Below, piece after piece: positions 60,382 to 63,760 of a DNA stretch of 64,000 bases. Source of the stretch: Paracoccus marcusii (GTDB lineage Bacteria > Pseudomonadota > Alphaproteobacteria > Rhodobacterales > Rhodobacteraceae); NCBI RefSeq assembly GCF_028621715.1, contig NZ_CP117466.1, positions 1,250,501 through 1,314,500 on the forward strand, given 5' to 3'. The notes beneath the pieces are model-generated. The model did not search any database and had not been told where the DNA came from. It was given only the letters and a program-made list of their open reading frames with translations. The position numbers were made by a program, and so were the translations under genes. Each line of letters begins with the position of its first letter. Within the stretch, counting starts at the first letter, position 1.

Positions 60382-60756
60382 TCAGGCCGGATCGCCGGTC
60401 ATCTGGTGCAGGGCGTCGATGATCTGGTCCGTGGGATAGGGCTTTGGAAAGAACCGCGCACCGGGCGGCAGGTCGGCGTCCTTGACGCCCAGGATCCCCG
60501 ACGCGACGATGATGCGGATGTCGGGCCAGGTGGCGCTGACATGGGCTGCCAGCTTCAGGCCGTTCATCGATCCGGGCATCTCGACGTCGGTGAACAGGAT
60601 GGCGATGTCGGAGGTGCCGTTCAGCGTGACCAGCGCGGCGTCGGCCGACTTGGCCTCGTAGGTCCGAAAGCCCGCGTCGTGCATCATGTCGACGGCTTCC
60701 ATCCGGATCAGGATCTCGTCCTCGACGACAAGGACGGCGTTGCGGGGCTGGGACAT
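60382..60756 (-). CDS. Single-domain response regulator (CheY-like)
   Basis: A 124-residue receiver domain with E12/D13 (VVEDEILIR), phospho-acceptor D57 in LFTDVEMPGSMNGLKLA, Thr/Ser switch position in VASGI, and K105 in FFPKPY. No output domain, so it relays phosphate to another protein. It resembles the FixJ/CheY-like receivers next to HWE kinases. It lies 32 bp downstream of the kinase gene, so probably its cognate partner. Confidence 0.93.
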   Translation of the reverse strand: MSQPRNAVLVVEDEILIRMEAVDMMHDAGFRTYEAKSADAALVTLNGTSDIAILFTDVEMPGSMNGLKLAAHVSATWPDIRIIVASGILGVKDADLPPGARFFPKPYPTDQIIDALHQMTGDPA

Positions 60757-60788
60757 GATGGTTCTTCCGGGAATGGGGTGGCGGACGC

Positions 60789-62234
60789 TCAGTCCTGCTG
60801 CGTCAGGCCGGTCAGCGGTGATGTCAGTTCGAAACGCAAACCGCCGGGGTCATAGTCCAGTTCCGCGACCCCGTCGAAGTATCCCGCAAGGGCCTGTTCG
60901 ATCATCCGGCTGCCAAAACCCTTGCGGCGGGGCGGGGTGACGGTCGGCCCGCCATGTTCCTGCCAGGACAGGCGGAATCCGACAGGCTCCGCGTGGTCGT
61001 CGCGGTCCCACCGGACCTGGACATGGCCCGTCTCGGCGGACAGGGCGCCGTATTTCATCGCATTGGTGGCCAGTTCATGCAGCGCCATGGTCAGGGCCAG
61101 CGCCTGCTTGGACCCCAGGGCCAGGTCCGGCCCCGCAACCCGGAAGCGGTCCGCGCTCATGCGGTGGGGGGCCAGGGCCGCCTCGACCACCTCGGTGATG
61201 GCGGTTTCTGTCCAAGTCGCCTTGACCAGGCGGTCATGGGCCTGCGCCATGATGCCGATGCGCGACTGGATGGACATGCGGGCCTGGTCCAGCGTCTCGG
61301 CCTGACGCAGGGTCTGCGAGACGATGGAATGCACCATCGCCATCGAGTTCTTGACCCGGTGGTTCATCTCTCCCAGCATCAGCTGAAGCTGTTCCTCGAC
61401 CACCTTGATGCGGTTGATGTCCGTGCAGCTGCCGTACCAGCGGGTGATCCGCCCCGTCGCATCGCGGACCGGCTTGGCGCGACCCAAGACCCACCGGTAT
61501 TCGCCGGACCGGTGCCGCAGTCGATACTCGATCTCGTAGGGCTGGCCGGTCTCCAGGCTTTGACGCCAGCGCGCCCATGTGCGGTCCTGATCGTCGGGAT
61601 GGAACATCCCGGCCCAGGCCTCGCCGTCGGTCGAGCCTTCGGGCACGCCGGTGAATTCGTACCAACGGTGGTTGTAATAGTCGTGAAATCCGTCCGGGCG
61701 GGTCGACCAGATCATCTGGTCGACGGAATCGGCGATGGCGTGGAACTTGGCCTCGCTGTCGTGCAGCTGCGCCTCCCGGGTCTGCAGCTCGTGCATGCGG
61801 TCGCGCGCCTCGTACTGCCGCGCGCGGGCCTTGAGGGCAGAGCCGACCGCGCGCACCAGTTCCTCCGCATGCAGCGGTCGCGACAGCACCACCCCGTTCT
61901 GCAGCGCGTCGATGCGGGCCTTGGCCCGGTCCGATCGATGCCGCGACGTCCCGTTCGCCAGAACGATGAAGGGAACGTCCGACCAGGACGGCTGATCGGC
62001 CAGGGCCTGCTGCAGCAGCCCCTCATCCGCGGCGACCAGGGCCTCCTCGGTGACCAGGGCCACGCCGATGGTTGCTCCGACCAGCCCCGCCAGCGCGGGC
62101 AGGTCCCGTGCCTGGACCGACGCGATGCCGACCTTGTCCAGCAGCGCCGCGGCCACGGCGGCGTCGCGGCCCCGCGGCGCCAGGATCGCCACCGCCAGGG
62201 CCAGGTCGTCGCGCGCGGCCGACCGGTCGGTCAC
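60789..62234 (-). CDS. HWE-type PAS histidine kinase with degenerate receiver-like N-terminus
   Basis: 481 residues. The N-terminal ~135 residues fold like a receiver (VAILAPRGRDAAVAAALL... PFIVLANG... VVLSRPLHAEELVRAVGSALK) but lack the phospho-Asp. A coiled linker is followed by a PAS domain (about 157-280, with the PAC motif EIEYRLRHRSGEYRWVLGRAKPV) and the HWE kinase core: H292 in GEMNHRVKNSMAMVHSI, N-box HELATNAMKYGAL, SWQEHGGPTV and GFGSRMIEQAL. There is no membrane segment, so it is cytosolic. GTG start overlaps the kaiC stop (GTGA). Confidence 0.92.
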   Translation of the reverse strand: MTDRSAARDDLALAVAILAPRGRDAAVAAALLDKVGIASVQARDLPALAGLVGATIGVALVTEEALVAADEGLLQQALADQPSWSDVPFIVLANGTSRHRSDRAKARIDALQNGVVLSRPLHAEELVRAVGSALKARARQYEARDRMHELQTREAQLHDSEAKFHAIADSVDQMIWSTRPDGFHDYYNHRWYEFTGVPEGSTDGEAWAGMFHPDDQDRTWARWRQSLETGQPYEIEYRLRHRSGEYRWVLGRAKPVRDATGRITRWYGSCTDINRIKVVEEQLQLMLGEMNHRVKNSMAMVHSIVSQTLRQAETLDQARMSIQSRIGIMAQAHDRLVKATWTETAITEVVEAALAPHRMSADRFRVAGPDLALGSKQALALTMALHELATNAMKYGALSAETGHVQVRWDRDDHAEPVGFRLSWQEHGGPTVTPPRRKGFGSRMIEQALAGYFDGVAELDYDPGGLRFELTSPLTGLTQQD

Positions 62235-63760
62235 CGTGCCCGGTCCCTTTGCGGATCGGTCGCCATCAGGTCGTTCTCGGTGCCCACCAGCACCGGGGTC
62301 CCGGACAGGATGCCCGAAAAGCCCCGGATCGGTGCGCCGATGACGATGCCGCCCCCGTCGATCCGCAATTCGCGGATCGTGCGTTCGTGGTCCGACGTGC
62401 GCGTCTTGATGACCGCGATCGACTTCCGCACCTCTCCGTCGGCCTCGAAAAAGCGCAGCATCATCATCGTGTCGGCCAGATAGCTGATGTCCAGGTCCGA
62501 CCGCAGGTCGCCCGTCACCCCGTGCTGACCCAGGATCATCAGCGAGACCACGCCCTGCTGGGCCAGGTAGCTGAGCAGTTCGTGCATCTGCAGCACCAGG
62601 AAATTGTCGCTTGGCATCGCGTGCAGATAGGCGTTCAGGCTGTCGATCACGACCAGTCCGACATCGTCCTTCTCGACCGCGCTGCGGACGGCGCTGGCGA
62701 ACTCTCCGGGGGACAGTTCGGCCGGGTCGATCTGGCGGATCGTCAGCAGGCCGGCGTCGATGAACGGCTGCAGGTCCATGTTCAGCACCTTGGATCGGGT
62801 CATCAGCGTGGCCAGCCGTTCGTCGAACAGAAAATAGGCCGCCTTCTGGCCACGCTGCAGGGCCGAGATCATGCAGCGCACGGCGGTCGTCGTCTTGCCC
62901 ACCCCGGCAGGCCCCGCCAGCAGCGTGTTGGTTCCGGGAAACAGGCCGTCGCCCAGCAGCGCATCCAGACCGGCAAGCCCCGTGGTCACCGGTTCGGCCG
63001 AAAAGCGGCGGTGGTGATCGGCCGCGATCAGGCGCGGATAGACGCGGATGCCGCCACGTTCGATGGTAAAGTCGTGATAGCCGCCGTGATATTTCAGGCC
63101 ACGCATCTTGACGACCCTCAGCCTGCGGCGCTCCGAGCCGAAATCGTTGGCCAGCTGCTCCAGCGAGATGACGCCATGCGCGATCGAATGCAGTTGCAGG
63201 TCGCCGGGTTCGGCCGTGCGGTCGTCCAGCATCAGCACGGTGCAGTTCCGGCGCGCGAAGAAATGCTTCAACGCCAGGATCTGGCGGCGATAGCGCAGCG
63301 GGTTCTGCGCCAGCAGGCGCAGTTCCGACAGGCTGTCCAGCACCACGCGCACCGGATCGGTCCGGTCCACCAGATCGAAGATGCCGCGCACCGTCTCTCC
63401 CAGTTCCACCTCGCTGGGATGCAGAAGCGACTGTTCGTGGTCAATGCCGAACTCATCTTCGGCGATCATCTCGAAGACGTCGATGCCGTCCAACGTCAGG
63501 TCATGCGACCGCGCGACGGCCTGCAGCTCTGTCTCGGTCTCGGACAGGGTGATGTAGAGGCCGCGGTCACCCGCCTGGCGTCCCTCCATCAGGAACTTCA
63601 GCGCCAGCGTGGTCTTTCCCGATCCGGGCGTGCCCTCGACAAGATAAAGCCGCGATGGCGTCAGCCCGCCCAGCAGCACGGCATCCAGGCCGGGGGTTCC
63701 GGTGCGAAAGCGCGCGTCGATGTCCGCGCCTGCTGTTTCCTGGCTCATCTGCTGTCCCAT
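62231..63760 (-). CDS. kaiC: Two-domain KaiC-family ATPase
   Basis: 509 residues with two RecA-like KaiC domains. Walker A GTPGSGKTT is at 43-51 and GPAGVGKTT at 283-291. The catalytic acidic pair is SE (73-74, LSETE) in the first domain and DE (313-314, LFDERL) in the second, where cyanobacterial KaiC has EE. The phospho-site segment DISYLAD (424-430) keeps S426 at the position of Ser431 but has Tyr427 in place of Thr432. Start 63760 or 63748 (MSQE). First gene of the kaiC-kinase-receiver operon. No kaiB or kaiA is in the window. Confidence 0.92.
   Translation of the reverse strand: MGQQMSQETAGADIDARFRTGTPGLDAVLLGGLTPSRLYLVEGTPGSGKTTLALKFLMEGRQAGDRGLYITLSETETELQAVARSHDLTLDGIDVFEMIAEDEFGIDHEQSLLHPSEVELGETVRGIFDLVDRTDPVRVVLDSLSELRLLAQNPLRYRRQILALKHFFARRNCTVLMLDDRTAEPGDLQLHSIAHGVISLEQLANDFGSERRRLRVVKMRGLKYHGGYHDFTIERGGIRVYPRLIAADHHRRFSAEPVTTGLAGLDALLGDGLFPGTNTLLAGPAGVGKTTTAVRCMISALQRGQKAAYFLFDERLATLMTRSKVLNMDLQPFIDAGLLTIRQIDPAELSPGEFASAVRSAVEKDDVGLVVIDSLNAYLHAMPSDNFLVLQMHELLSYLAQQGVVSLMILGQHGVTGDLRSDLDISYLADTMMMLRFFEADGEVRKSIAVIKTRTSDHERTIRELRIDGGGIVIGAPIRGFSGILSGTPVLVGTENDLMATDPQRDRAR

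Follow-up and report, generated by a model that had tools for sequence, protein, structure and literature searches.

A kaiC operon without kaiB in Paracoccus marcusii and the receiver-like head of its histidine kinase, a candidate reader of KaiC

A kaiC gene, a PAS histidine kinase (HK) gene and a single-domain response regulator (RR) gene follow one another on the minus strand of the 64,000-nucleotide stretch of the Paracoccus marcusii genome analysed here (contig NZ_CP117466.1, positions 1,250,501 to 1,314,500; hereafter the window), and our subject is how their products may work together in a genome without kaiB. The first 150 residues of HK are referred to as the head; KaiCs encoded with such a head are called head-linked, and those encoded with KaiB are called KaiB-linked. 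A first-pass annotation, made from the letters alone, had described the three-gene set, its GTGA coupling, its positions and its strand correctly, as re-reading of the sequence confirms, and the residues it singled out (Ser426-Tyr427, SE in CI, DE in CII, H292 and D57) are each as stated there. The features, in window coordinates, are as follows.

62231 to 63760, minus strand: kaiC, 509 amino acids, for a KaiC ATPase with two domains from the head-linked clade (PF06745, E = 8.5e-67, two stretches)
63539 to 63544, minus strand: Ser73-Glu74 of KaiC CI, at the place of Glu-Glu in KaiB-linked KaiCs
62819 to 62824, minus strand: Asp313-Glu314 of KaiC CII, from the alignment with head-linked and KaiB-linked KaiCs
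62480 to 62485, minus strand: Ser426-Tyr427 of KaiC, by alignment the equivalent of the S431-T432 phosphosites
62231 to 62234, minus strand: GTGA overlap of the kaiC stop and the HK start, read from the sequence
60789 to 62234, minus strand: PAS-HWE histidine kinase HK, 481 amino acids (HWE_HK, E = 1.7e-23; PAS_3, E = 1.5e-22)
61785 to 62234, minus strand: head of HK, residues 1-150, a putative pseudo-receiver adaptor (AlphaFold2 model, PDB matches and invariant residues)
61431 to 61679, minus strand: PAS_3 domain of HK, residues 186-268 (Pfam match)
61125 to 61370, minus strand: HWE dimerisation/phosphoacceptor domain of HK, residues 289-370 (Pfam match)
61359 to 61361, minus strand: H292 of HK, the predicted phospho-histidine, in the motif NHRVKN
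60382 to 60756, minus strand: single-domain response regulator RR, 124 amino acids (Response_reg, E = 1.8e-11)
60586 to 60588, minus strand: D57, the predicted phospho-aspartate of RR, in which the acid pair E12-D13 and K105-P106 are also kept

The window KaiC is 99% identical to a KaiC of Paracoccus marcusii, has a Walker A motif in both of its ATPase domains (PF06745), and finds its nearest solved structures among KaiCs. It scores below the NCBIfam equivalog cut-offs (147 against 546 bits for circ_KaiC, TIGR02655, and 256 against 408 bits for KaiC, NF006799). HK is a member of the HWE family, with 83.6 bits for PF07536 at a cut-off of 22.8 bits. The family used for comparison comprises 74 head-linked KaiCs, which were chosen by an identity of at least 45% to the window KaiC and then all found to be accompanied by a head; many of them are close relatives and not independent. 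They belong to a set of 90 KaiC rows, from which 24 of an initial 114 had been removed as duplicates, pieces or a near-copy, the last being L002, where the sequence ends just after kaiC and the head lies beyond its end. With the nearest possible start codon taken in each case, an overlap of 4 bases with the kaiC stop is possible in 42 of the 74 members and the distance is 20 bases or less in 68.

No Pfam family matches the head above its cut-off, and the only Pfam stretch that reaches into it is a sub-threshold DUF5384 match (E = 0.035) starting at residue 123. The AlphaFold2 model of the head, obtained from a 28-row alignment, has a mean predicted local distance difference test score of 91.2 and a predicted template modelling (TM) score of 0.86, and displays the strand-helix order of a receiver. 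A Foldseek search of the PDB with this model returned 1391 matches up to an E value of 10, and the 50 listed ones were examined. Receiver domains account for 49 of them, with E values from 4e-5 to 6e-4 and query TM scores of 0.51-0.69, and PhoB and HupR mutants with Asp changed to Glu are among these; the remaining one (row 35) is a methylmalonyl-CoA mutase subunit, a B12-enzyme domain. Neither KaiB, thioredoxin, CikA nor KaiA is found among these 50 listed matches. The N-terminal domain of SasA has a thioredoxin fold; a KaiB- or SasA-like fold of this kind finds no support for the head in either the model or the 50 matches, and HK does not have the KaiB-like head of a SasA-type kinase.

Ten residues are invariant in the 74 heads (D24, Q81, W84, S85, D86, R119, P120, R137, R139 and Q140). 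Placed by eye, the position of the phospho-aspartate is taken by E63 in HK and is Glu in 63, Asp in 5, Ile in 2 and Ala in 2 of the 74, the receiver lysine is replaced by Arg119 in all of them, and the acid pair is absent directly after strand 1. We read the head as a pseudo-receiver, a domain modelled with the receiver fold that lacks the residues for phosphorylation, in agreement with the degenerate receiver-like kinase head proposed in the first-pass annotation.

The head-linked KaiCs carry residue signatures that tell them from the 13 KaiB-linked KaiCs in the same alignment (CI pairs being readable in 73 and 12 rows, respectively). In CI, 70 of the 73 head-linked rows have SE and 3 have AE, as against EE in 11 and DE in 1 of the 12 KaiB-linked ones, so that the first CI catalytic glutamate is missing from every readable head-linked KaiC. 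The CII pair is DE in 73 and EE in 1 of 74, as against EE in 10, DE in 2 and AD in 1 of 13. At the phosphosites, the head-linked proteins have SY (47), TY (25), TF (1) or SF (1) and the KaiB-linked ones SS (6), ST (6) or MT (1); the first site is thus Ser or Thr in 74/74 and the second Tyr or Phe in 74/74 (Phe in 2), with (S/T)Y in 72. Since the first site can be phosphorylated throughout and the second is kept aromatic, a two-site phosphocycle appears unlikely. The SY, SE and DE residues noticed in the first pass are therefore real, but they are signatures of a clade and not oddities of one protein. A tyrosine at the second site of some KaiC3 proteins is already in print (PMC5520375; of the papers cited here and below, parts of the text were available).

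In a KaiC tree of 89 rows built by a quick method, in which long branches come together and the rooting is arbitrary, the head-linked KaiCs form one side of a branch with support 63 and the KaiB-linked KaiCs likewise with support 98. Three rows, L029, L030 and L032, fall in neither group, with AQ, AQ and AE in CI, EE, EE and YE in CII, and SF, GY and SS at the phosphosites. L029 and L030, from genomes G088 and G170, combine a KaiC of 39% identity without the CI and CII signatures with a head that has diverged (30% and 26% identical, WSR in place of WSD) and a short HWE-like kinase; they may represent an outlying branch of this system.

The head and this KaiC clade are linked near-exclusively. 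Among 385 genomes of the class, the head was found in 22 and a KaiC (E = 1e-25 or better) in 33. Every one of the 21 genomes with a KaiC at least 49% identical (a KaiC in pieces in the case of G291) has the head, and one other genome, G573, has it too (Fisher p = 1e-33, the 385 genomes being treated as independent). The head is absent from all 12 genomes with only more distant KaiCs, where every candidate was scored. The genome scans otherwise scored a limited number of first-look candidates in each genome (at most 10, 3 and 9), and the 351 class genomes with neither head nor KaiC were judged on these; all candidates were scored also for G573, a genome that comes up again below. In the loci fetched from the class, genus and phylum searches, kaiC lies directly upstream of the head in 52 of 54, and both loci without it belong to G573, one of them being a weak match; of the 40 phylum head matches, eight were left out of this inspection of neighbours. 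Counted by the head, the pair is patchy, occurring in 4 genomes out of 101 in the genus and in 36 out of 398 in the phylum. One other genome of the genus, G605, contains two head-kaiC loci (L092 and L094), with KaiCs 86% and 81% identical to that of the window. The head is common in Pseudomonas, and a search begun from a Pseudomonas head scored 7994 proteins, of which 4021 had the head at E = 1e-5. No fusion of KaiC and head was seen among 120 listed of 8000 homologues, a weak negative, as much longer proteins fell outside that search.

The kinase behind the head is exchanged while the head is retained. By short motifs, the kinase is of the HWE type in 21, of the HisKA type in 52 and unassigned in 1 of the 74 members (L063 being the unassigned one, and L078 placed by a looser pattern, NHRVRN), and parsimony requires six changes of type on the KaiC tree. 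Distances between KaiCs and between heads correlate at 0.83 over 73 pairs, a value reached by 0 of 2000 permutations, and in 44 HisKA members the KaiC-head correlation of 0.82 compares with 0.64 for KaiC and the kinase core (bootstrap difference 0.09 to 0.28). This constancy of the head against a changing kinase core supports, at the level of sequence, the first-pass suggestion that the head is the part most likely to contact KaiC. Shared descent may still contribute to the co-divergence, though the kinase core has that descent too.

As regards inputs and outputs, the distance from the head to the phospho-histidine is below 80 residues in 33 of 73 members, too little for a PAS domain, which leaves the head as their only evident input domain. 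The flavin-binding cysteine (NC) motif is the hallmark of LOV PAS domains; HK has no such motif, its single cysteine being residue 270, and light sensing through a LOV PAS domain was rejected on this ground. A receiver gene (55-83% identical) lies downstream of HK in all 11 Rhodobacterales loci of the HWE type with enough sequence, so that the gene order, whose conservation the first-pass annotation had made a test of its reading, is indeed conserved. In hybrid relatives the receiver is a domain inside the kinase according to the Pfam lists, and the Methylobacterium locus L024, of the short HWE type, gave no match to a receiver anywhere in its 13.5 kb, which speaks against a universal free receiver.

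A profile search for KaiB (PF07689), as the first-pass annotation had proposed, gave no match in the window genome (one contig of 3,175,811 bases, 98.94% complete), and thus no kaiB adjoins the window. A kaiB just beyond the right edge is ruled out in this way; the adjoining 11.5 kb on that side (L001) were read as open reading frames (ORFs) only. A kaiB on a plasmid outside the searched sequence is less likely given that the 3.7-Mb genome containing L002, a P. marcusii locus of 99% identity, has no KaiB match either. In a search of 30 genomes (the genome of L007 being excluded), 25 have a KaiC belonging to this clade, with identities of 51-99% (23 named genomes plus G149 and G192), and kaiB is found in none of them, nor in G088 and G170, the two with the diverged version; the sole kaiB is that of G051, next to a KaiC of no more than 30% identity (L031). 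Of 33 class genomes searched, 12 contain kaiB, 16 genes in all, every one about 1 kb or less from a KaiC with an identity to the query of 25-31%. In this 33-genome search, three of the 20 genomes with a head-linked kaiC (G265, G291 and G465) hold kaiB as well. No KaiB was thus found in the head-linked operons, and the same genome may hold a KaiB for another KaiC. In G265, G291 and G465 the KaiB-linked KaiC and the head-linked kaiC are on separate contigs; both modes are present in one cell, and these genomes are natural material for a comparison.

Taken together, the KaiB-free KaiC is probably the input module of a two-component system and is read through the pseudo-receiver head. KaiC would bind and hydrolyse ATP and probably autophosphorylate on a single residue, Ser426. 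The head of the kinase encoded by the overlapping gene would read the nucleotide or phosphorylation state of KaiC directly and relay it, by way of its own long last helix, to the PAS and HWE portions of the kinase; these may then phosphorylate the adjoining receiver (His292 to Asp57). Several points weigh against this. The contact between KaiC and head is one that we infer, and co-regulation together with shared descent can also yield operon linkage and co-divergence. The branch of the head-linked KaiCs has a support of only 63 where long branches meet, and the diverged KaiCs of L029 and L030 carry a head but not the residue signatures. With one of the two CI catalytic glutamates gone, ATPase activity is predicted with less assurance. 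Finally, in G573 a head kinase is preceded by a transporter-like ORF, and no KaiC of this clade is present among all 27 candidates scored. The head-bearing protein of this locus (L061, G573:C1:458257-458664) is a hybrid kinase with the transporter-like ORF in the place of kaiC, and such an orphan may show what the head does on its own.

The retention of the head kinase in G573 also favours a different account, in which the genes form one regulon without contact: the head would sense a ligand or another protein, and KaiC would act apart from it as an ATPase effector, one that may lie downstream of the relay. Small ligands can bind pseudo-receivers, according to the available text of PMC12632262. 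However, the head pairs with one KaiC clade and not with others, and co-diverges with KaiC more than the kinase core does, and we consider this account rather unlikely. Still less likely, and in our view improbable, is the proposal of 2011 that KaiC keeps time as an hourglass or circadian timer without KaiA or KaiB, the kinase serving as a SasA-like output. KaiC is the core of the cyanobacterial clock, and PMC3164672 argues, in the parts available, from two phosphorylable sites and from cotranscription in Ramlibacter. An ordered two-site cycle is nevertheless unlikely with an aromatic second site in all 74 head-linked KaiCs, the first CI glutamate is gone in 73/73, and no KaiB is found beside any head-linked kaiC. 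A clock is not indicated for the window KaiC. The KaiB-independent set of KaiC, kinase and receiver put forward in the first pass is supported, with no kaiB in the window genome or in the 25 relatives; its possible link to light or time is not, given the absence of a LOV motif and the loss of the two-site residues. CikA is a clock input kinase. The least probable account is that the kinase acts on KaiC, the relay setting the KaiC state like a clock input arm: PAS domains in many family members could bring in an outside signal, and a pseudo-receiver is present in CikA (PMC12632262, in part), but PAS has no room in 33 of 73 members, and a free or fused receiver is available as a possible output.

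A broader account has, in our estimation, about an even chance of being right: the KaiC clade would have left the KaiB cycle, with loss of the CI glutamate, an aromatic second site and a pseudo-receiver as its reader, the head would be a plug-in joined about six times to different kinase cores, and KaiC would serve as a general ATP-driven input of two-component systems and not as a clock. KaiC occurs without KaiB in many bacteria; should the head dock KaiC, its 150 residues would be a target for the study of non-clock KaiC signalling and would flag those KaiB-free KaiCs that act through a histidine kinase.

The arrangement itself has been known since 2011, from a paper that we take to be that of De Luca et al. 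The text available from it (PMC3164672) describes a kaiC context with SY, TY or SF sites, a specific histidine kinase following and kaiB absent, exemplified by Rta_04330/Rta_04340 of Ramlibacter tataouinensis, where the kinase belongs to the 'Nt_HK' family and cotranscription was found by reverse transcription PCR; the kinase N-terminus was proposed there as a KaiC-interacting module, with identities of 16% to SasA, 10% to KaiB and 19% to a receiver. By gene order, SY sites, a kinase with a conserved N-terminus and a genome without kaiB, the window appears to be a member of this kind, an assignment made independently of any match between the head and the Ramlibacter sequence. It differs from that description in a head that models as a receiver fold and in an HWE kinase with a separate receiver, and, whereas kaiB is absent from the genome in PMC3164672, 3 of 20 head-linked genomes here do have one, beside another KaiC. 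What is added here is the wide recurrence of the arrangement with the same adaptor. We found in print, a term search of PMC3164672 included, neither a model of the head as a receiver nor the change of Glu to Ser in CI as a signature, and neither the numbers on head-KaiC pairing nor the exchange of kinases; this is a weak negative, as most subscription papers lay outside the search.

Among better-known systems, the proposed arrangement resembles KaiC-SasA of Synechococcus in that KaiC would feed a histidine kinase through the N-terminal domain of the latter; unlike that of SasA, which is KaiB-like (PMC3164672, in part), the window head is receiver-like and KaiB is absent. A pseudo-receiver is likewise used in the Kai system by CikA and KaiA, although that of CikA binds KaiB according to the text available from PMC12632262, and the window has none. 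The BRADO1478-1481 operon of Bradyrhizobium (kaiC, kaiB, PAS kinase and CheY receiver; PMC3899966, in part) similarly clusters KaiC, a PAS kinase and a single-domain receiver but, unlike the window, includes kaiB; the KaiB-linked KaiCs compared here mostly have EE/EE and S(S/T). The KaiBC of Rhodobacter sphaeroides (PDB 8db3; PMC10076222, in part) provides another two-domain KaiC of an alphaproteobacterium, which works with KaiB, has SS sites and possesses a C-terminal tail about 50 residues longer, a tail that the window KaiC does not have. The introduction of a paper on myxobacteria (PMC11832031) ascribes to the KaiCs of Pseudomonas roles in biofilm, osmotic stress and oxidative stress, with no evidence for a circadian function; some of those proteins may belong to the present clade.

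Just beyond the right edge of the window, the first likely gene (L001:6573-7031) appears by eye to encode the 2Fe-2S subunit of a xanthine/isoquinoline-type dehydrogenase.

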